Below are positions 8,500 through 27,823 of a stretch of DNA of 34,892 bases, one piece after another (the stretch's first letter is position 1; every line of letters begins with the position of its first letter). Source of the DNA: Candidatus Heimdallarchaeota archaeon (GTDB lineage: Archaea; Asgardarchaeota; Heimdallarchaeia; Heimdallarchaeales; Heimdallarchaeaceae). The stretch lies in assembly GCA_030608385.1 (NCBI GenBank), contig JAUWEG010000017.1, positions 1-34,892 of the forward strand, in the 5' to 3' direction. The translations under genes were made by a program, and so were the position numbers. The notes under the pieces were generated by a model. That model worked only from the letters and a program-made list of their open reading frames with translations, had not been told where the DNA came from and did no database searches.

Positions 8500-11157
8500 A
8501 TGATGAAGCGTTTTGATGATAGAAAGCTTATGCCTAAACTAACCCCAATGATGCAACAATGGCAGGATATTAAAAAACAATATTCTGAGTATATCATATT
8601 TTTCAGAGCGGGGGATTTCTATGAAACATTTAATGAAGATGCACAAATAGCTTCTCGAGTTCTTAATATTACTCTCACAGCTCGCACACTAGGAGAAAAG
8701 AAATTTCCTTTAGCAGGTGTTCCATATCATGCAGTGGATGCATATATTGCCAAAATGGTAGAAAATGGGTACAAAGTTGCAATGGTTGAACAATTGGAGG
8801 ATCCACAAACAACTAAGAAAATTGTAAAAAGAGGAGTTGTGCAATTAATCTCAAGAGGAACAATCACTTTACCAGAATCTCTAGCAAAGGGGCATAATAA
8901 TTACTTAGCAGCAATTTACAAGGAAGGAAATTTGATAGGTCTTTCAGCTCTAGATTTATCTACAGGTGAGTTTTTAGTTACAGATTTTGAAGGTGAAAAA
9001 GCAAAAAATCTACTAGAAGTAGAATTAACCCGCCTTAACCCATCAGAAATCATAGTAACCCAAGAATTTTGGGCAAAACTGAATATCTATTTTAATCAGC
9101 AAAAGTGTACTATCACATATAGAGATGATTATTTTTTTGATATTGAGCAAGGACTTCAGAATCTTCATAGATTATTCGATGTTCTAAGCTTGGATGGATA
9201 TGGGGTAAATGAATACGTTCCTTCGATAGGAGCAGCAGGAGCTACACTCAAATACATTAAAGAAACTCAAATGAGAGAAAATTTTCCAAATATCACAAAA
9301 ATCAGTCAAATCAAGAGTCAAGACTATATGTTACTTGATTTCAGTACTATTAGAAATCTTGAACTGATAGAAAATTTACGTGACAGAACAGAATATGGAA
9401 CACTGAGGCAAGTTCTTGACAACACTAAAACACCAGTGGGATCAAGATTGCTCACAACATGGATACTACGTCCTAGTCTTAATCTTTCAATAATTCAAGA
9501 GAGAATTGATGCAACAGAAGAATTATCCTCAGATTCAGTATCTAGAGAAGAATTGAGAAACATACTTGGAAGAATGAGTGATATTGAACGTTTGATAGGA
9601 AGAATATGTCTTGGAAGAAGTAAACCACGAGATTTAACCGCTTTGAAAAGTTCATTGGAATTGATACCAGATATTAAATCAGTTCTTTCAGAATTCAAAG
9701 CATCTCTCATAAAAGATATCAAAAAGAATATTGATCCATTGCCAGAAGTGGTAAATATAATCGCTACAGGAATTGAAGACGAAGTTCCCGTGAGTATTAA
9801 AGATGGTAATGTTATTAGAGACGGATATAATGAAGAGCTGGACGAGCTAAGGAAAATACAAAGAGGGGGAAAATCATTTCTTACTTCTTTAGAAGCAAGA
9901 GAGAAAGTTCGAACTGGAATAAAGACTTTAAAAATTCGTTACAACAAAGTATTTGGTTATTATATTGAAGTCCCAAAGGCCTCAGCAGTTAATGTCCCTC
10001 AAGAATATGAAAGAAAACAAACACTTGTGAATGCTGAGAGATATATTACCCCAGAACTAAAAGAATATGAAGAAAAGATTCTAAACGCTGAAGAAAAAAT
10101 ACTAGTTTTAGAAGAAGAATTATTCGACCAATTGTTGGAGGAAATAACTCAATATGCCAAACCAATCCAACAAAATGCCAATTACTGCGCAGTAATTGAT
10201 GTTATAGGAACCTTTGCACAAAATGCAGTGTATTATGATTACTCAAAGCCAGAAATTACGAAAGAAAGCATTATTGAAATAAAGGACGGGAGACATCCTG
10301 TTGTTGAAAGACTATTGGAACAAACATCCTTTATTCCTAATGATACATTACTGAAAAATGATTCAGAAAGAATATTAATTATCACAGGTCCAAACATGGG
10401 AGGAAAAAGTACATTACTGAGACAAGTTGCTTTAGTAGTTTTAATGGCTCAAATTGGTAGTTTTGTACCTGCAAGCTTTGCAAGAATCGGACTAACTGAT
10501 AGAATTTTTACAAGAATAGGTGCTCATGATGTTTTAGTAGAAAATCGTTCAACATTCATGGTAGAAATGTATGAATGTGCTAATATCCTCAATAATGCTA
10601 CAGAAAAAAGCTTAGTGATTCTAGATGAAGTTGGTAGAGGAACATCAACATATGATGGGGTTGCCATAGCTTGGTCAATAACAGAATACCTTCATGATCA
10701 TATTGGTAAGAATGGACCACGAACACTTTTTGCAACACACTATCATGAGTTAATAGAATTGGAAGAAAAAATGCCTAGAATAAAAAATTATCATGTTTCT
10801 ATCAAGAATGTTAATGGAGATATTCACTTCCTCTACAAAGTGAAAGAAGGAGGAATAAGTGAGAGTTTTGGAATTCATGTTGCTTCACTAGCAGGATTAC
10901 CAGAAGACGTTATCACAAATGCAGATAATCGCTTATCATTATTACATGAACAAGAGTTAGAAAAAAGTACCACTAAGAAAAGTGAAACTATTAAGACTAA
11001 ATCTTCAAAATCAAAAGTTTCTACTATTTATTCAGCATATGAAGAAATTGTTGAGAATGTTTCTAGATTGAATTTAGAAGATACAACACCAGTAGAAGCA
11101 TTCAATATCCTAAATGATTTAGTTAAGAAAAGTAAAAAAACTTTGAAAGAGAAATAA
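8500..11157 (+). CDS. mutS: DNA mismatch repair ATPase MutS (bacterial MutS1 type)
   Basis: The 885-residue protein recognises mismatches and starts methyl-independent mismatch repair with MutL. The mismatch-binding domain has the Phe-x-Glu motif in GDFYETFNEDA (about residue 40), so it is a MutS1 repair protein, not the endonuclease-fused MutS2. Connector, lever and clamp domains follow (clamp about 430-540). The ABC ATPase has Walker A TGPNMGGKST (about 628), STFMVEM (signature region), Walker B LVILDEVGRGTST (about 704) and ATHYHEL. The C-terminal 60 residues resemble the MutS tetramerisation tail. Length is normal for the family. MutS1/MutL is patchy in archaea and usually attributed to transfer from bacteria. 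It is 49 bases upstream of mutL. Confidence 0.97.
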   Translation: MMKRFDDRKLMPKLTPMMQQWQDIKKQYSEYIIFFRAGDFYETFNEDAQIASRVLNITLTARTLGEKKFPLAGVPYHAVDAYIAKMVENGYKVAMVEQLEDPQTTKKIVKRGVVQLISRGTITLPESLAKGHNNYLAAIYKEGNLIGLSALDLSTGEFLVTDFEGEKAKNLLEVELTRLNPSEIIVTQEFWAKLNIYFNQQKCTITYRDDYFFDIEQGLQNLHRLFDVLSLDGYGVNEYVPSIGAAGATLKYIKETQMRENFPNITKISQIKSQDYMLLDFSTIRNLELIENLRDRTEYGTLRQVLDNTKTPVGSRLLTTWILRPSLNLSIIQERIDATEELSSDSVSREELRNILGRMSDIERLIGRICLGRSKPRDLTALKSSLELIPDIKSVLSEFKASLIKDIKKNIDPLPEVVNIIATGIEDEVPVSIKDGNVIRDGYNEELDELRKIQRGGKSFLTSLEAREKVRTGIKTLKIRYNKVFGYYIEVPKASAVNVPQEYERKQTLVNAERYITPELKEYEEKILNAEEKILVLEEELFDQLLEEITQYAKPIQQNANYCAVIDVIGTFAQNAVYYDYSKPEITKESIIEIKDGRHPVVERLLEQTSFIPNDTLLKNDSERILIITGPNMGGKSTLLRQVALVVLMAQIGSFVPASFARIGLTDRIFTRIGAHDVLVENRSTFMVEMYECANILNNATEKSLVILDEVGRGTSTYDGVAIAWSITEYLHDHIGKNGPRTLFATHYHELIELEEKMPRIKNYHVSIKNVNGDIHFLYKVKEGGISESFGIHVASLAGLPEDVITNADNRLSLLHEQELEKSTTKKSETIKTKSSKSKVSTIYSAYEEIVENVSRLNLEDTTPVEAFNILNDLVKKSKKTLKEK

Positions 11158-11206
11158 CAGTAAATATTGCTTTAATTGCCTTAAAACAAAGAACATCTGT
11201 GATTCT

Positions 11207-13021
11207 ATGAGTAGAAAAATAGTCAAACTAGATAAGCTTACTATAAACAAGATAGCTGCTGGAGAGGTTATTGAACGACCAGCGTCTGTTGTTAAAGAAC
11301 TTGTAGAAAATTCAATTGACGCACAGAGTAGCAAAATCACAATAAACATTCAAGAGGGAGGGAAAAAAAGTGTAGAAGTTATAGATGATGGAATAGGGAT
11401 GGAATCTACTGATGCAAGATTGTCAATTAATCGGCACACTACCAGCAAAATAAATAATGCAGATGATCTATTTTCAATTTATAGTTTAGGATTTCGAGGA
11501 GAGGCTTTAGCAAGTATTGTTAGTGTTGCTCAGGTTGAGATAATCACCAAAACAGAAGAGTCAGATTTAGGAATTCACTTAGTGATTGAGGGGGGAGAAA
11601 TTGTTTCAGACAAACAAGCCTCCGCACCGAAAGGAACACGCATTAGTGTAAAAAATCTCTTCTTCAATGTTCCCGTTAGAAGAAAATTTCTTAAAACAAT
11701 ATCTACTGAAATCAATCACATTACAGAATATGTAACTAAACTAGCACTTGCAAATCCTAGCATTTCTTTCACCCTTACTCATAATGGAAAGGATATACTT
11801 ACAGCTCCCAAAGGTGATTTGATTGTACAAATTACCGCAATCTTTGGTGAAAATATAGCCAGAGCTTGTTTACCCATCAATAAGAAAGAAAATGAATACA
11901 GTGTTACAGGTTTTATTACTAAACCAGAATTTTCCCGAAAATCCAAAGACTATCTGTATATCTTTGTCAATGGAAGGTCTGTAACCAACAAAGTCATATC
12001 TGAAGCAGTTTCGCGAGGATATGGTACCGCAGTTCCCCATAATAGATATCCCATAATTTTTCTATATTTCGACTTACCGCCAGATGAAGTTGATGTCAAT
12101 GTACATCCAACTAAGAAAGAAATCAGATTTAGCAATGAAGCTAAAGTATATGCACTAATTGAAACGGCTATCAGAGAATCATTAGAAAGAAGTGGGTTAA
12201 AATTATTCGAAACAGTTATTGAAACAAGGCACAAACCAACAACTCTAACTTCGGTTGGAACCAAAAGTCATGAATCTGAAAAGAGAAAATTACCTACTCC
12301 TATAAGTCCGAGAGAAAGACCAGATTACAAAATAGTAAAAAGTAAGGAACAGAGAATTGATAAATTTCTTCCAACAATGGATAAAAACATAGAATTACAA
12401 GAAGAAGGCTTTGAACGAAAGAAGAGTATTAGAATTCTTGGGATTATCAAGGACACTTACATTGTTGCTGAAACCCAAGAAGGATTGTTCTTATGTGATC
12501 AACATGCTGCTCATGAAAAAATAAATTATGAGAGATATATTAAACAAATAAAAAAGAAAAGTGTCTCAATTCAGCAGTTACTTGCTCCTATTTCAGTTAC
12601 ACTAAAACCCTCTGAATTTGAAATAATAGAAAGTATAGAGGAAAATCTCAAAACATTTGGTTTTGAAATTGAAGTTTTTGGTAAGAATGAAATATTAATT
12701 CGGTCAATTCCATCTATTATGGGTGTAACTATAGAATTCAATGTAGCAAAGGACATGATTGATATTTTTAAAACAAATGTTTCAGAGATAAAAGAAAAAT
12801 TGGATTTAGAAGATTTAGGGTTTGTAAAAGACATAATATCCATCTTTGCATGTAGAAGATCAATTAAAGCTGGGGATAAAATCACATTAGATAGAGCGGA
12901 ATTGCTTTTGAAAGAGTTACTAGAACTAGAAGAACCTTTCACCTGTCCCCATGGAAGACCAACCATCATTATACTAAATGAAAAATACATAGAAGAGCTT
13001 TTTAAGAGAGATTATAGATAA
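11207..13021 (+). CDS. mutL: DNA mismatch repair endonuclease MutL
   Basis: The 604-residue partner of MutS. The N-terminal GHKL ATPase shows IAAGEVIERPASVVKELVENS (motif I with the catalytic Glu), DDGIGM and GFRGEAL; DVNVHPTKKEIRF closes the transducer domain near 300. A variable linker spans about 330-405. The C-terminal domain carries the endonuclease metal motif DQHAAHEKINYE (about 430), with ACRRSIK and CPHGRPT (about 580), so this is the nicking MutL found in organisms without MutH. No MutH or Dam gene is visible in the window. The gene lies within the deoC-mutS-mutL run. Confidence 0.97.
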   Translation: MSRKIVKLDKLTINKIAAGEVIERPASVVKELVENSIDAQSSKITINIQEGGKKSVEVIDDGIGMESTDARLSINRHTTSKINNADDLFSIYSLGFRGEALASIVSVAQVEIITKTEESDLGIHLVIEGGEIVSDKQASAPKGTRISVKNLFFNVPVRRKFLKTISTEINHITEYVTKLALANPSISFTLTHNGKDILTAPKGDLIVQITAIFGENIARACLPINKKENEYSVTGFITKPEFSRKSKDYLYIFVNGRSVTNKVISEAVSRGYGTAVPHNRYPIIFLYFDLPPDEVDVNVHPTKKEIRFSNEAKVYALIETAIRESLERSGLKLFETVIETRHKPTTLTSVGTKSHESEKRKLPTPISPRERPDYKIVKSKEQRIDKFLPTMDKNIELQEEGFERKKSIRILGIIKDTYIVAETQEGLFLCDQHAAHEKINYERYIKQIKKKSVSIQQLLAPISVTLKPSEFEIIESIEENLKTFGFEIEVFGKNEILIRSIPSIMGVTIEFNVAKDMIDIFKTNVSEIKEKLDLEDLGFVKDIISIFACRRSIKAGDKITLDRAELLLKELLELEEPFTCPHGRPTIIILNEKYIEELFKRDYR

Positions 13022-13804: not shown

Positions 13805-14536
13805 CTATTTCCGCATTACTCCAGTAATAAATTCGCTATCTAGTTTTTCATAACGTTCTATCGAACCAATATCTTCCCAATACACATCATCTGGAATATA
13901 AGCGTACATCTGTTCATTTTCTACAAACTTGGGAAATATGTCTTTTGATAAATCAATGCTTGTACTGGAATCAAACTCATTAAGATAATTGAATACAATT
14001 GGATCTAAAATACTAATTCCAGTATTAACCAGTAAAGGTATTTGGGGTTTCTCCACAAATTTTTTGACTTTATTAGATGTATCGACTTCAGCAGTACCAA
14101 CGCGTATTTTCCAACCCCTAGACGCTAAAATGGTTGCCCATTTTCCATGATTGGTGTGATAATTTACCATCTCAGAGAAATTTACGTTGGTTATAATATC
14201 AGAATAATAAATTATCATTTTTCTCTCCCCAATATATTCTTGAGCATTGAGTAAAGCAGTACCTGTCCCTACAGGTCCTGGTTTATCAGGAACATAAATC
14301 AAATTCATCCCCAGTTTCTCACCATCTCCAAAGTATCCTTGTATCTGCTCTTTTTTGTAATTCACCAACAAAATTATATCGTTAATACCGTGTTTCTTGA
14401 AATGTTTAAGCACATACTCTAGAATAGGAACTTGATCTTCCCCAATAGGCATCATAACCTTCTGCATATAGTAAGTTAAAGGTCTCATTCGAGTACCTTC
14501 TCCTCCACAGAATAGTATACCAACAGTATCCGTCAT
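13805..14536 (-). CDS. Sugar-phosphate nucleotidyltransferase
   Basis: A 243-residue enzyme of the glucose-1-phosphate thymidylyl/uridylyl or mannose-1-phosphate guanylyl transferase family, which makes NDP-sugars for glycan synthesis. It has the signature loop GGEGTRMRPLT and the following lysine (QKVMMPIG, where the family usually has PKPMLPV), then GPVGTGTALLNA, the metal-binding Asp in IIYYSDIITN (usually GD), VEKPQIP and NTGISIL. There is no C-terminal left-handed beta-helix, so it is the short single-domain form. It is probably a supplier for the glycosylation genes at the left of the window. Base and sugar specificity cannot be assigned; the altered Pro and Gly are noted as oddities. 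Confidence 0.85.
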   Translation of the reverse strand: MTDTVGILFCGGEGTRMRPLTYYMQKVMMPIGEDQVPILEYVLKHFKKHGINDIILLVNYKKEQIQGYFGDGEKLGMNLIYVPDKPGPVGTGTALLNAQEYIGERKMIIYYSDIITNVNFSEMVNYHTNHGKWATILASRGWKIRVGTAEVDTSNKVKKFVEKPQIPLLVNTGISILDPIVFNYLNEFDSSTSIDLSKDIFPKFVENEQMYAYIPDDVYWEDIGSIERYEKLDSEFITGVMRK

Positions 14537-16600: not shown

Positions 16601-16610
16601 ACACACATTC

Positions 16611-16649
16611 CTTTTTTCTTTTCGATTCAAAAACTTTTTTTATTCTTCT
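16611..16649 (+). terminator. T-rich terminator after metK
   Basis: Two T tracts, CTTTTTTCTTTT and ACTTTTTTTATTCTT, follow the metK stop with no stable hairpin. This is the normal form of archaeal intrinsic or aCPSF1-assisted termination. Confidence 0.5.
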
Positions 16650-16668
16650 ACTTCTGTTGTTCGAAAGC

Positions 16669-17331
16669 ATGAATAACAGCAGAAGTTTCAGTGTTGAAAA
16701 ATCAATTCAAAAAATTCTTACTGAAGAAAAACCTAAAACTGTAAGAAAGCTTATTCAAAGGACACTAGAACTTACAGAAGCAAATGAAAAACAAGTCTAT
16801 CAAACAATTAAAGACTTGGAAAAAAGAAACGCTATTCACCTAGGTTCACCTAAAATTTCTAGAAAATTACCTAAAACTATACCAGATTTTTTGTTTAAGT
16901 TGCATTATTTTTCTGTCGAATTTTGGCTTACTTTAGGTCTTTGCATTCTTTTCTTTATTACAGTACTTCTAATTCCAGAAACCTCGCCTTTGTTGTTTTT
17001 AAGAGTTATAATAGGAGGAATATTTGGAGTTTTGATACCAGGTTGGACAATGACTAATCTTATCTTTCCAAGATTATATGAAGCAATTGATCAATATGAG
17101 CGGATTTTGATATCTTTAGGAATTAATATTGGAATAATGATTTTTTCAGGGTTGATACTAAATCAGATATGGGTTATGGAAACACCTTCGTTTGTCATAA
17201 TAATTGGATCTCTTACAGTTTTTATCTTATTCTTAACTGCCCTATTACGCATTCTAATAGGTGCGGGGAAATTAGAGTTCAATATTTCATTATCTAGATT
17301 CAATATTTTCAAAAAGGGTGATACAAAATGA
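16669..17331 (+). CDS. Winged-helix plus DUF1616-type membrane protein
   Basis: A 220-residue membrane protein; the ATG at 16669 is preferred over the upstream TTG at 16657. Residues 10-60 look like a winged helix (VRKLIQRTLELTEANEKQVYQTIKDLEKRNAIHL). Four membrane helices follow. The second and third pair, RVIIGGIFGVLIPGWTMTNLIFP and YERILISLGINIGIMIFSGLIL, match the DUF1616 family (LPGY-LFP then a D/ER-LALS-GLS segment). DUF1616 proteins usually carry an extracytoplasmic domain after the last helices; here the protein stops, and that domain is found two genes on at 17849. It overlaps the next gene by 4 bases (ATGA). It may be a membrane-bound regulator or scaffold; the function is unknown. 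Confidence 0.72.
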   Translation: MNNSRSFSVEKSIQKILTEEKPKTVRKLIQRTLELTEANEKQVYQTIKDLEKRNAIHLGSPKISRKLPKTIPDFLFKLHYFSVEFWLTLGLCILFFITVLLIPETSPLLFLRVIIGGIFGVLIPGWTMTNLIFPRLYEAIDQYERILISLGINIGIMIFSGLILNQIWVMETPSFVIIIGSLTVFILFLTALLRILIGAGKLEFNISLSRFNIFKKGDTK

Positions 17332-17852
17332 AGAGGTATCAGAAATTCATTTTGATTCTGTGTGTATTTTGTATCACTACAATAGTGCATAATCAAATAC
17401 CAATTGTTCAAGGCCAAGCTGAACAAGAAGCATCTGCAGCCATTCAAGAAGCGGATGAAAAACTTACTTATGTATTGGAACTACTTGAAGAAATCTCCAT
17501 TTATGATGAAGATATTCGCAACTTGATACTACAAACCGATGATGCACGACAATTGATCAAAGAAGCTAAGGATAACTATGCAAGTAGTAACTTCACAATT
17601 TCTTATCAAAAAGCAACCGGAGCGATTCTACAACTTGATTCTATTATTGGAAAAATCGATTCTAAAATTCAAAGTAAGACTCAGAACAAGATAATTATTT
17701 TTTCACTTGTGGGTGTGCTGGCTGGTTTAGGAGCAATAATGTTTAGTTTTCTCTTCATTAGCAAAATATATCCCTGGTACGAGAAGAAGAAAATCGAAGA
17801 ATACAGTAAGCTTGAGATTAATTATAATAATTTCAAAGGGGATATGAAATGA
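17328..17852 (+). CDS. Signal-peptide, helical, single-pass membrane protein
   Basis: A 174-residue protein that was not recognised. It has an N-terminal signal peptide (KRYQKFILILCVFCITTIVHN, likely cut near VQGQA), an external helical segment of about 95 residues with spaced alanine and leucine repeats (AIQEADEKLTYVLELLEEI, ARQLIKEAKDNY), one membrane helix near residue 125-148 and a short basic and aromatic cytoplasmic tail. The external part resembles a two-helix bundle. Its start overlaps the stop of the DUF1616 gene and its stop overlaps the start of the next gene, so the three proteins are translationally coupled and probably form a membrane complex. Confidence 0.7.
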   Translation: MKRYQKFILILCVFCITTIVHNQIPIVQGQAEQEASAAIQEADEKLTYVLELLEEISIYDEDIRNLILQTDDARQLIKEAKDNYASSNFTISYQKATGAILQLDSIIGKIDSKIQSKTQNKIIIFSLVGVLAGLGAIMFSFLFISKIYPWYEKKKIEEYSKLEINYNNFKGDMK

Positions 17853-18475
17853 CAAAAGAGAAGAAGAGCTTGATTAAGAAGGTCAATTCTAAGCTCACCC
17901 AGTCCCAAGTAAATAGGATAATATCATTGTCAATCATTCTTGTTGTTGTTGCATCTGTAATTGGAATTTCATCAAGTGTATTTTTCCAAAAAAAACCAGA
18001 TGGATTCTCAGAGTTATCTCTTCTAATGTATAATGATTTGACTGAAATTTTTGAAGCGAACAACTATCCAATACAAATTTATTCTTATGAAAATGTTTCA
18101 GTCTATTTTATGGTTAAAAATTTCGAGAATAGTGTAAAATATTATCAATTGCAAATAAAGGTAGTAGAACTTACTCAAAACGTTAGTTCACAGCAACCAA
18201 TTTCTGCTATATCGTCCTTTTTTCTCTATGCAAATGATACATTTGAAAAAATCTTATCACCAGCTACAAACGCGGAAAAAAAAGAAACTGGATTGTTTGC
18301 TGGAGACTACATCTGGGAACCAACTGAACTTGTATTATATTTAAATTCTGAAGTTGTAAGTAAACTCACTAGTCCAAATTTCCTCAAGATTGTGTTTGAG
18401 CTTTGGGAATTCAATACAGAAAAAGAGAATTTCCAATACACAGGAGTATTTGCTTTCCTTGAATTAGAGTACTAG
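17849..18475 (+). CDS. Membrane-anchored DUF1616-like ectodomain protein
   Basis: A 208-residue protein with a basic cytoplasmic N-terminus, one membrane helix (IISLSIILVVVASVIGISS, about 25-43) and an external beta-sandwich-like domain. The start of that domain, FSELSLLMYNDLTEIFEANNYPIQIYSYENVSVYFMVKNFE, has the pattern of the extracytoplasmic part of DUF1616 proteins (F/YTEFY-L-G-NYP-V-ENVTV-V-I-N-E). It has several N-x-S/T sequons. With the gene at 16669 it would rebuild a full DUF1616 protein from two chains. It follows the coiled protein with a 4-base overlap and ends 8 bases before the phosphoesterase. Homology is remembered pattern, not computed. Confidence 0.6.
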   Translation: MTKEKKSLIKKVNSKLTQSQVNRIISLSIILVVVASVIGISSSVFFQKKPDGFSELSLLMYNDLTEIFEANNYPIQIYSYENVSVYFMVKNFENSVKYYQLQIKVVELTQNVSSQQPISAISSFFLYANDTFEKILSPATNAEKKETGLFAGDYIWEPTELVLYLNSEVVSKLTSPNFLKIVFELWEFNTEKENFQYTGVFAFLELEY

Positions 18476-18483
18476 GTGATATC

Positions 18484-19131
18484 TTGAAAGTTAAAATACT
18501 AATTTTGTCTGATATCCATAGCCAAAATATCACTTTACTCAATATTCTTCACTCAGCTAAAAATCTCAAAAAACCACCAACCCATTGCTTAATTGCTGGA
18601 GATATAACCAATTTTGGCACCATTGCAGATATGGATCAAATCTTAAACACAGTTAATGATTACTTCAAAAATGTATTTTTTGTAATTGGAAATTGTGATC
18701 CTTATGCCAGAAATGAAGAATTTGAAACAAAAGCAATTAATGTAGAATCAAAAATTCAAGAAATTGAATTCTTTAAGATTATAGGATTTGGAACGCATAA
18801 ACCAAAATTAAAACAAAAACTGTTAAATAAGTTGAAAAAATCAAAAGACAAAGTTTGCCTTCTTACACATGTGCCGCCCCACAATACACAAGCAGACATG
18901 GTTTCGTTGAATCGACATATTGGTTCGATTGAATTGAGAAAATTTGTTGAAAAAAATTCTCACATATTTTTGGTTGTATCAGGACACATTCATAATTCGC
19001 CTACTATAACTAAATTAAATGAATGTACAGTGGTTAATCCAGGCCCTGTCACAACAGGTAATTTTGCGATTATAGAGGTTGATTCAGATTTCAAAATAGA
19101 GGGAAAAATATACAATTTATATGAGATGTAG
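18484..19131 (+). CDS. Calcineurin-like metallophosphoesterase (YfcE/MJ0936-like)
   Basis: A 215-residue enzyme with all five motifs of the binuclear metallophosphoesterase fold: SDIHS, GDITNFG, GNCD, THVPPH and SGHIHNSP, plus the family's NPGP near the end. Such proteins hydrolyse phosphodiesters or phosphomonoesters, often with Mn or Ni. The start is a TTG at 18484, preceded by AGGTGAT, which overlaps the stop of the gene before. It comes 8 bases after the DUF1616-type operon and just before an HD phosphohydrolase, so the pair may share a transcript. Its substrate is unknown. Confidence 0.9.
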   Translation: MKVKILILSDIHSQNITLLNILHSAKNLKKPPTHCLIAGDITNFGTIADMDQILNTVNDYFKNVFFVIGNCDPYARNEEFETKAINVESKIQEIEFFKIIGFGTHKPKLKQKLLNKLKKSKDKVCLLTHVPPHNTQADMVSLNRHIGSIELRKFVEKNSHIFLVVSGHIHNSPTITKLNECTVVNPGPVTTGNFAIIEVDSDFKIEGKIYNLYEM

Positions 19132-19135
19132 AAAA

Positions 19136-19798
19136 ATGAAACAAGAAAATTATAAGCTTAAGTTTTTATCCAACTTAACAGAATTGAAAGAAGTGCTCCA
19201 AAAGGCACACAAGTATGTTAAAAAACAATTTCAGCTTTATGAAGACAAAATGTCACATTCATTTGATCACATAATCCGAGTTACAAATACGTGTTTAGAA
19301 CTAGCGCCAAAACTTGATGCACATTTGGATGTATTACTTATTGCATCTATTTTTCATGATGTGGGAAGACCCATTGAGGAAATAAATGGAAAGTGTCACG
19401 CAGAAATAAGTGCTGAAAAAGCAGTTGAATTTCTAGATGGATTGAATCTCACCTTGCTAAAACAAGATGTGACTGAAGCTATTCTTTCCCACAGATTCAG
19501 TAAAAATATTGCTCCAAAGACAATAGAAGCAAAAATACTACAAGATGCTGATGCGCTTGATGCATTAGGAGCAATTGGTCTTTACAGAACCATCAGCTTC
19601 AGCTGTGAGAGGGGGCTTAATATGAAAGAGGCCTTAGTTCATTTTGATGAAAAGCTCTTCAAACTCCCTTCAAGGATGCATTTCTCTATAACTAAAAATA
19701 TAGCAGAAGATAAATGTAGTATTCTAAATGAATTTATTAAAAAAGTTGGAGAAGAGTCAAGTAACATTCACTTCAATACCTTTATGAATAAAGTATAG
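19136..19798 (+). CDS. HD-domain phosphohydrolase
   Basis: A 220-residue HD superfamily protein. Metal-binding residues are in SHSFDHIIRV, IFHDVGRP (the HD pair, about residue 75), ILSHRFS and LQDADALDALGAIG, the pattern of the YedJ/YpgQ-like phosphohydrolases, some of which act on nucleotides. The track start at 19121 overlaps the phosphoesterase; the ATG at 19136, 4 bases after its stop, is preferred. The HD and preceding metallophosphoesterase genes are adjacent and on one strand, suggesting linked roles in nucleotide or phosphate metabolism. The substrate is not deducible. Confidence 0.87.
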   Translation: MKQENYKLKFLSNLTELKEVLQKAHKYVKKQFQLYEDKMSHSFDHIIRVTNTCLELAPKLDAHLDVLLIASIFHDVGRPIEEINGKCHAEISAEKAVEFLDGLNLTLLKQDVTEAILSHRFSKNIAPKTIEAKILQDADALDALGAIGLYRTISFSCERGLNMKEALVHFDEKLFKLPSRMHFSITKNIAEDKCSILNEFIKKVGEESSNIHFNTFMNKV

Positions 19799-26920: not shown

Positions 26921-27823
26921 ATGAGTCAAAATGACATAAGAATGTATAAAGAACTCTTAGATCTCCTAGATAAGAGGAAAGAAGAAGGCGCAATCGACAA
27001 AGCTAGCTATGAAGAATTAAAGGAAAGATACACTGAAAAATTAAGTTCAGCTAGACAAGAATTAGAATTTAGAAAAGATGCACCTGACATAAAAGTATCA
27101 GGATCAAAAGCTTTCACACAAGATTCTATTACTGTTTCTGGTGCTGCCACAATATCTGGAGGGAAAGTGACAAGAGATATAAGAATCTTTGGATCGGGTA
27201 AAATCTCTGGAGATATTGAATGTAAAGCATTGCGATGTTCTGGATCAGTTAAAGTTTATGGAAATGTACTCGCACATGGTGAAGTAAAGTGCTCAGGTTC
27301 ATTTAAATGCGAGAAAGATTTACATACTGATGAAAATGCCTCGTTTAGTGGTTCAGCAAGAGTTTCAGGAGAAACCGTGGTTCAGGGACATCTTTCTGTA
27401 ACTGGATCCTATAGAAGCGAAAAGAATACACAGGCCATTAGAGGAGCTACCCTCACTGGTTCTTCTATAATAGGAGCTAATCTACTTTCTGAAGATACAA
27501 TTAAAATTGGAGGAAAAGCACGTATTGAGAAAAACATCTTGTGCGATAATGTATTAATCGAAGGTCGAAGAACCGTTTTTGAATCTTGGTTTTTCAGGAA
27601 AGCTAAAAAAATAGTAACTGTTTATGGAAGCATCATTGCACAAAATGAAGTAGATGTTCAAGATGTTAAAGTATTTAAGAATATTAAGGGAAGGGTTGTA
27701 AAACTAGGCCCTAATACTTTGGTAGAGGGGAGAGTATTTTATGTTGAAGATTTGTTCATGGCAGATAGTGTGAAGTTGATGAAAGACCCTAAGAAAGTAT
27801 CCCAAGAAGAAATTAAACTCTAG
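26921..27823 (+). CDS. Bactofilin-like beta-solenoid protein with SHOCT-like N-terminus
   Basis: A 300-residue protein. The first 45 residues (YKELLDLLDKRKEEGAIDKASYEELKERY) resemble a SHOCT short helical oligomerisation motif. From about residue 55 the chain is a run of short glycine- and valine-rich turns (VSGSKAF, VSGAATISGG, IFGSGKISGD, CSGSVKVYGNVLAHGE, FSGSARVSGE), as in bactofilin/polymer-forming cytoskeletal beta-helices. A break near 215-230 (WFFRKAKK) is followed by a second set of turns. There is no signal or membrane helix, so it is probably a cytosolic filament-forming scaffold. It is longer than typical bactofilins. Divergent from the HTH regulator. Confidence 0.8.
   Translation: MSQNDIRMYKELLDLLDKRKEEGAIDKASYEELKERYTEKLSSARQELEFRKDAPDIKVSGSKAFTQDSITVSGAATISGGKVTRDIRIFGSGKISGDIECKALRCSGSVKVYGNVLAHGEVKCSGSFKCEKDLHTDENASFSGSARVSGETVVQGHLSVTGSYRSEKNTQAIRGATLTGSSIIGANLLSEDTIKIGGKARIEKNILCDNVLIEGRRTVFESWFFRKAKKIVTVYGSIIAQNEVDVQDVKVFKNIKGRVVKLGPNTLVEGRVFYVEDLFMADSVKLMKDPKKVSQEEIKL

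Follow-up and report, generated by a model that had tools for sequence, protein, structure and literature searches.

Three overlapping genes in the window, the whole 34,892-nucleotide stretch of Candidatus Heimdallarchaeota DNA that was analysed, appear to encode a single membrane complex, a split Asgard form of the DUF1616 protein, which most likely builds or anchors the cell surface and carries a head that docks a cytosolic partner; we hold this reading with moderate confidence. In this reading the membrane base would be made by the four helices of gene 1, whose winged-helix head would lie in the cytosol, the fifth helix and the DUF1616 ectodomain would come from gene 3, and gene 2 may stand next to gene 3 as an anchored helical stalk. 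What the complex builds or anchors would be surface glycoconjugates or sorted surface proteins. The head probably docks its partner instead of reading DNA, and candidates for this partner include the MoxR ATPase, a glycosyltransferase and a sugar-nucleotide enzyme. DUF1616 is a widespread archaeal family without known function, and a natural split reveals which of its parts can be separated, names gene 2 as a partner and offers links to archaeosortase, MoxR and glycan genes that can be put to the test.

Gene 1 (16669-17331, + strand) has an ATG start, with an in-frame TTG at 16657 as a possible alternative, and encodes 220 aa comprising a winged-helix-like domain (about residues 8-62) and the four-helix N-terminal half of DUF1616. 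Gene 2 (17328-17852, +) encodes 174 aa without a named family, for which hydropathy predicts a signal peptide, an extracellular alpha-helical domain, one membrane helix and a cytosolic tail. Gene 3 (17849-18475, +) encodes 208 aa, a membrane helix followed by the C-terminal DUF1616 ectodomain. Both junctions on this strand are ATGA stop/start overlaps in the sequence (17328-17331 for genes 1/2 and 17849-17852 for genes 2/3), and the open reading frames and junctions were as the initial annotation had described them, namely a signal-peptide helical protein joined on both sides by 4-base overlaps. The interval between metK and gene 1 (16603-16668, +) contains a BRE/TATA-like element read directly from the sequence, TTCAAAAACTTTTTTTATT, which is probably the operon promoter. 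In 11 genus relatives, much of whose intergenic region had diverged, a similar motif was kept with a comparable spacing, and the operon is therefore probably transcribed separately from metK.

Eight bases 3' of gene 3 lies a YfcE-like metallophosphoesterase gene (18484-19131, +; Pfam Metallophos, E 6e-15), which is overlapped by the gene for an HD-domain protein (19121-19798, +; Pfam HD, E 6e-17). Both are probably on the same transcript as genes 1-3. Relatives in the window's family (f1) share the order of both genes, and the phosphoesterase arrangement was absent from other lineages. A sugar-nucleotide (NTP) transferase gene (13805-14536, -; Pfam NTP_transferase, E 2e-38) is situated 2.1 kb upstream, outside the operon; the neighbours are otherwise housekeeping genes (metK, the phosphoesterase and HD genes, and FKBP). 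Elsewhere in the window, full-length mismatch-repair genes for MutS (885 aa) and MutL (604 aa) stand in tandem at 8500-13021 (+), and a bactofilin-domain protein is encoded at 26921-27823 (+; Pfam E 2e-8).

Genes 1 and 3 both exceeded the curated cut-off of 31.6 bits for the Pfam DUF1616 family (PF07760). Gene 1 matched positions 7-118 of the 307 (E 9.5e-8; 32.0 bits, just above the cut-off) and gene 3 matched positions 135-251 of 307 (E 1.6e-10; 41.1 bits). When the gene families were compared profile to profile with an alignment of six haloarchaeal and methanogen proteins in which DUF1616 is fused, the gene 1 family aligned to columns 44-159 (99.7%) and the gene 3 family to columns 183-345 (98.9%). 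The matches do not overlap and jointly span most of the fused protein, in keeping with the earlier assignment of DUF1616 membrane helices lacking an ectodomain to gene 1 and of a DUF1616-like ectodomain on its own membrane helix to gene 3. The cut separates helix 4 from helix 5 within the loop on the cytoplasmic side, with the topology inferred from hydropathy, so that each half retains a sensible topology. The membrane half and ectodomain are joined in the fused proteins L140-L155, the short L156 entry has the C-terminal part only, and in the window they are two proteins, which is why we describe a split variant and not an ordinary PF07760 member. One genome of a second Heimdall family (f7), G056, also carries a long fused DUF1616 paralogue (L063), demonstrating that both forms can coexist in one genome.

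Residues N91, E184 and W186 of gene 3 were invariant in an alignment of 34 homologues. The ectodomain was recognized by its sequence match to the corresponding part of DUF1616; its AlphaFold model shows strands at a pLDDT of 40, and this model and that of gene 1 (pLDDT 46), both built on an alignment limited to the window with its near relatives, were of too low a quality to be used. A search of solved structures with genes 1, 2 and 3 gave no convincing match for any of them, and viral contigs searched with the fused DUF1616 alignment yielded no relative.

The distribution of the genes was assessed in 228 Asgard genomes, 117 of which had PF07760 matches. The gene 1 profile matched in 60 genomes, 49 of them with small proteins of the gene 1 kind, and the gene 2 profile in 51, or 44 after filtering; weak matches to long proteins were set aside in the counts of 49 and 44. 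Both genes were found in 40 genomes, gene 1 only in nine, gene 2 only in four and neither in 175 (Fisher P 3e-31 by genome, a figure that takes no account of relatedness, and P = 1.7e-4 at family level). The split form is thus present in Heimdallarchaeota and in several further groups of Asgard archaea. The three-gene order, for which the Asgard genomes were searched as had been proposed, was kept in the window's family, including its genus relatives, and in family f7, and gene 2-gene 3 pairs extended into further families. Gene 1 is divergent from genes 2-3 in families f10 and f11 and occupies a separate locus in f15, f26 and f27, where genes 2 and 3 are still together, as they are in f16. 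In the conserved set gene 2 is immediately 5' of gene 3, and such conservation in many genomes rules out chance as the source of the arrangement. In family f19 gene 3 as a rule occurs without genes 1 and 2 and adjoins a sugar-nucleotide epimerase gene in the loci read, and the complex is thus not obligatory.

In three family f10 loci (L072, L074 and L075) genes 2 and 3 form a single open reading frame of 337-340 aa. Because canonical DUF1616 is equivalent to a fusion of genes 1 and 3, gene 3 is tied by fusion to both of its partners, which argues for one complex and upholds the membrane-spanning complex suggested by the initial annotation. This constitutes good evidence for a likely association of the three products, from which we infer a physical complex.

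Gene 2 gave no family above cut-off in Pfam or NCBIfam, and its family gave no profile-profile match to the fused DUF1616 alignment; as judged by sequence comparison it is unrelated to DUF1616. Matches in Pfam and NCBIfam to LcrG, ETRAMP and similar families scored under the cut-off and were rejected, and structural matches to designed helical proteins and haemolysin E were taken as coiled-coil noise. In family f20, the 165-aa gene that follows gene 1 was considered as a diverged gene 2 and discarded, having neither similarity nor a membrane helix. Such soluble proteins of 160-165 aa without a family match are encoded directly 3' of gene 1 in that family (L089, 2641-3138; L087, 1297-1779), and it is a guess that they might be longin-like. 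A gene 2-like helical segment was also seen near a membrane helix in long secreted proteins, protease-like and phosphodiesterase-like (L163 and L165), and the segment may therefore be a general archaeal stalk module.

Glycan genes were found around the loci of several families. The family f11 loci contain GT4 glycosyltransferases and a sugar-nucleotide transferase (and, in L078, a UDP-GlcNAc 2-epimerase), the f10 loci GT4, GT2 and type I phosphodiesterases, the f15 loci sugar epimerases, the f26 loci sugar-nucleotide transferases, an epimerase and a PMT-type glycosyltransferase, and the f27 loci a polysaccharide flippase. When three glycan Pfam families were counted genome-wide, 14 members lay within ~4 kb of nine loci against 1.25 expected, and at least one was present at six of the nine loci (P 1.6e-4, an indicative value since the genomes were chosen after the neighbourhoods had been seen). 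None of the three families occurred within 4 kb in the tested f7 and f10 genomes. Fused DUF1616 relatives on haloarchaeal plasmids are also located among glycosyltransferase, flippase and DUF58/MoxR genes; no gene 2 homologue was found near these plasmid DUF1616 genes.

Exosortase systems are known to be located with glycan genes. In family f7 the order archaeosortase-gene 1-gene 2-gene 3 was observed in eight of nine genomes, which belong to one genus (two of the eight cut by contig ends inside gene 1), and the gene directly upstream of gene 1 encodes a heimdallarchaeosortase (heimosortase NF045528, E 5e-75). This protein is a tandem (L066, 1255-2724, and orthologues in the family), in which the first domain retains the exosortase Cys, Arg and His and looks active, and the second is degenerate, without the catalytic Cys and His. 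For the question of how Asgard archaea, relatives of eukaryotes, build their surface, the f7 operon provides a concrete gene set to test. The heimosortase of the window's genome is on contig C107, apart from genes 1-3, and in further Heimdall genomes the sortase is present where these three genes are lacking. The window itself encodes an exosortase/archaeosortase-family protein (1790-2821, -), above cut-off for TIGR04178 and Exosortase_EpsH and distinct from the heimosortase equivalog. Its gene is convergent with that of a GT4 glycosyltransferase (650-1795, +), and the protein represents a second sortase-type system in this genome. In G002, of family f9, a DUF4350-MoxR-DUF58-gene 1 run is followed by a polysaccharide flippase gene on the opposite strand. 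The glycan, archaeosortase and MoxR neighbours point to the assembly of surface glycoconjugates and sorted proteins rather than to gene regulation, and a surface-assembly role, offered by the initial annotation as an alternative, fits these neighbourhoods and is most likely.

The winged helix that had been assigned to gene 1 is likely. Several gene 1 homologues gave weak matches to different winged-helix Pfam families (z-alpha, 2e-4; GMT-wHTH; DnaD_N; TrmB), and an N-terminal winged-helix-like domain was recognizable in all 30 aligned Asgard gene 1 proteins; the window protein had no winged-helix match in Pfam and, with its poor AlphaFold model, leaves the fold short of proof. Fused haloarchaeal and methanogen DUF1616 proteins have no such head, as they begin shortly upstream of helix 1, which leaves no room for it. 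The same head was found on long proteins of ~775-821 aa that also carry the DUF1616 N-terminal half (L095, 449-2776; L172, 4280-6742), the first of which is polytopic, with many more membrane helices, and sits in a glycosyltransferase cluster.

A winged-helix-like domain joined directly to membrane helices is what would be expected of a one-component membrane regulator of the ToxR/CadC kind, in which the ectodomain of genes 2-3 senses the envelope and gene 1 signals to a DNA-binding winged helix controlling surface genes. The net charge of the head, +2 to +8 in the window's family, and the divergent orientation of gene 1 in f10 and f11, a layout common for regulators, are consistent with such signalling, which had been the other proposal of the initial annotation. 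However, part of family f7 has a charge as low as -6, helix 3 is for the most part neutral to acidic and lacks conservation, being variable in one clade, and inspection by eye of the sequence upstream of gene 1 revealed no operator-like repeat. Taken with the occurrence of the head on long proteins, of which L095 is polytopic and lies in a glycan cluster, these features suggest that the head, which could bind DNA, is better suited to docking a cytosolic partner; together with the glycan, archaeosortase and MoxR neighbours they make signalling less likely than surface assembly, and we regard a regulator as unlikely. The three proteins may instead be subunits of the predicted DUF4350-MoxR-vWA secretion or remodelling complex (Makarova et al. 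2015), acting in trans from their own operon in Heimdallarchaeota. DUF1616 is a proposed component of that complex (PMC5898192), the G002 run joins gene 1 to it, and a DUF4350-MoxR-DUF58 operon is present on contig C214 of the window's genome (MoxR being read from sequence). Yet this operon is unlinked to genes 1-3, among the Asgard gene 1 loci that were read a single one showed the linkage, and DUF4350-type matches were present in 212 of the 228 Asgard genomes with or without DUF1616, so that co-occurrence is uninformative; the secretion function is itself a prediction, also in PMC5898192. Membership of this complex we would likewise place among the unlikely explanations.

It could also be that the genes are linked and their products do not interact, with genes 1 and 3 acting separately and the overlaps reflecting only compact genomes. 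The solitary gene 3 of many f19 genomes, the distant gene 1 of f15, f26 and f27, and the phosphoesterase and HD reading frames, packed as tightly downstream, agree with this, but the two kinds of fusion and the conserved co-occurrence make it very improbable. The preferred reading, of one surface-building complex, has points against it as well: the closest glycan gene in the window's family is 2.1 kb off on the opposite strand among housekeeping neighbours, the heimosortase and MoxR operon are on other contigs, f19 has gene 3 without genes 1 and 2, and the counted glycan families are missing near the tested f7 and f10 loci. An extension of it, in which an Asgard-specific machine of split DUF1616 core, head and stalk couples sugar-coat synthesis to archaeosortase anchoring and the degenerate second sortase domain of f7 is a docking unit, is speculative and seems quite doubtful.

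The system had been proposed as possibly undescribed, and for DUF1616 itself this does not stand. The family is arCOG02884, annotated as a 'membrane protein with extracellular Ig-like domain, predicted component of a putative secretion system' (PMC6393860), and Makarova, Galperin and Koonin (2015) proposed it as part of the predicted DUF4350/MoxR/vWA-DUF58 complex (PMC5898192). Relative to the literature covered, the novel elements are the split itself, the winged-helix head, gene 2 and the genomic contexts (the f7 archaeosortase operon, the G002 run and glycan genes in most lineages). In a literature search whose coverage excluded most subscription journals, no description of a split DUF1616 and no joint mention of Heimdallarchaeota and sortase were found.

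Compared with the fused proteins of the family, such as HVO_2173 and MMP0360, genes 1 and 3 match the N- and C-terminal parts in the same order of helices and ectodomain, and N-glycosylation of Haloferax HVO_2173 (PMC8241124) places that ectodomain outside the cell. The Asgard form differs in being cut in the cytoplasmic loop, in its additional winged-helix-like head and in the unrelated gene 2 lying in between. With the DUF4350-MoxR-vWA complex (PMC5898192) it has DUF1616 in common, and gene 1 follows DUF4350-MoxR-DUF58 in G002, whereas the window operon is unlinked, and the model as published, on our reading, includes neither gene 2 nor the winged helix. To the archaeosortase/exosortase systems (NF045528, TIGR04178) it is linked in f7, where a heimosortase adjoins gene 1 upstream, although that sortase is a tandem with a degenerate second domain and the heimosortase of the window's family is encoded elsewhere. 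ToxR/CadC-type regulators likewise combine a membrane protein and its ectodomain with a winged-helix-like head; here, in contrast, there are four membrane helices, an unconserved recognition helix, a variable charge and neighbours of surface biogenesis.
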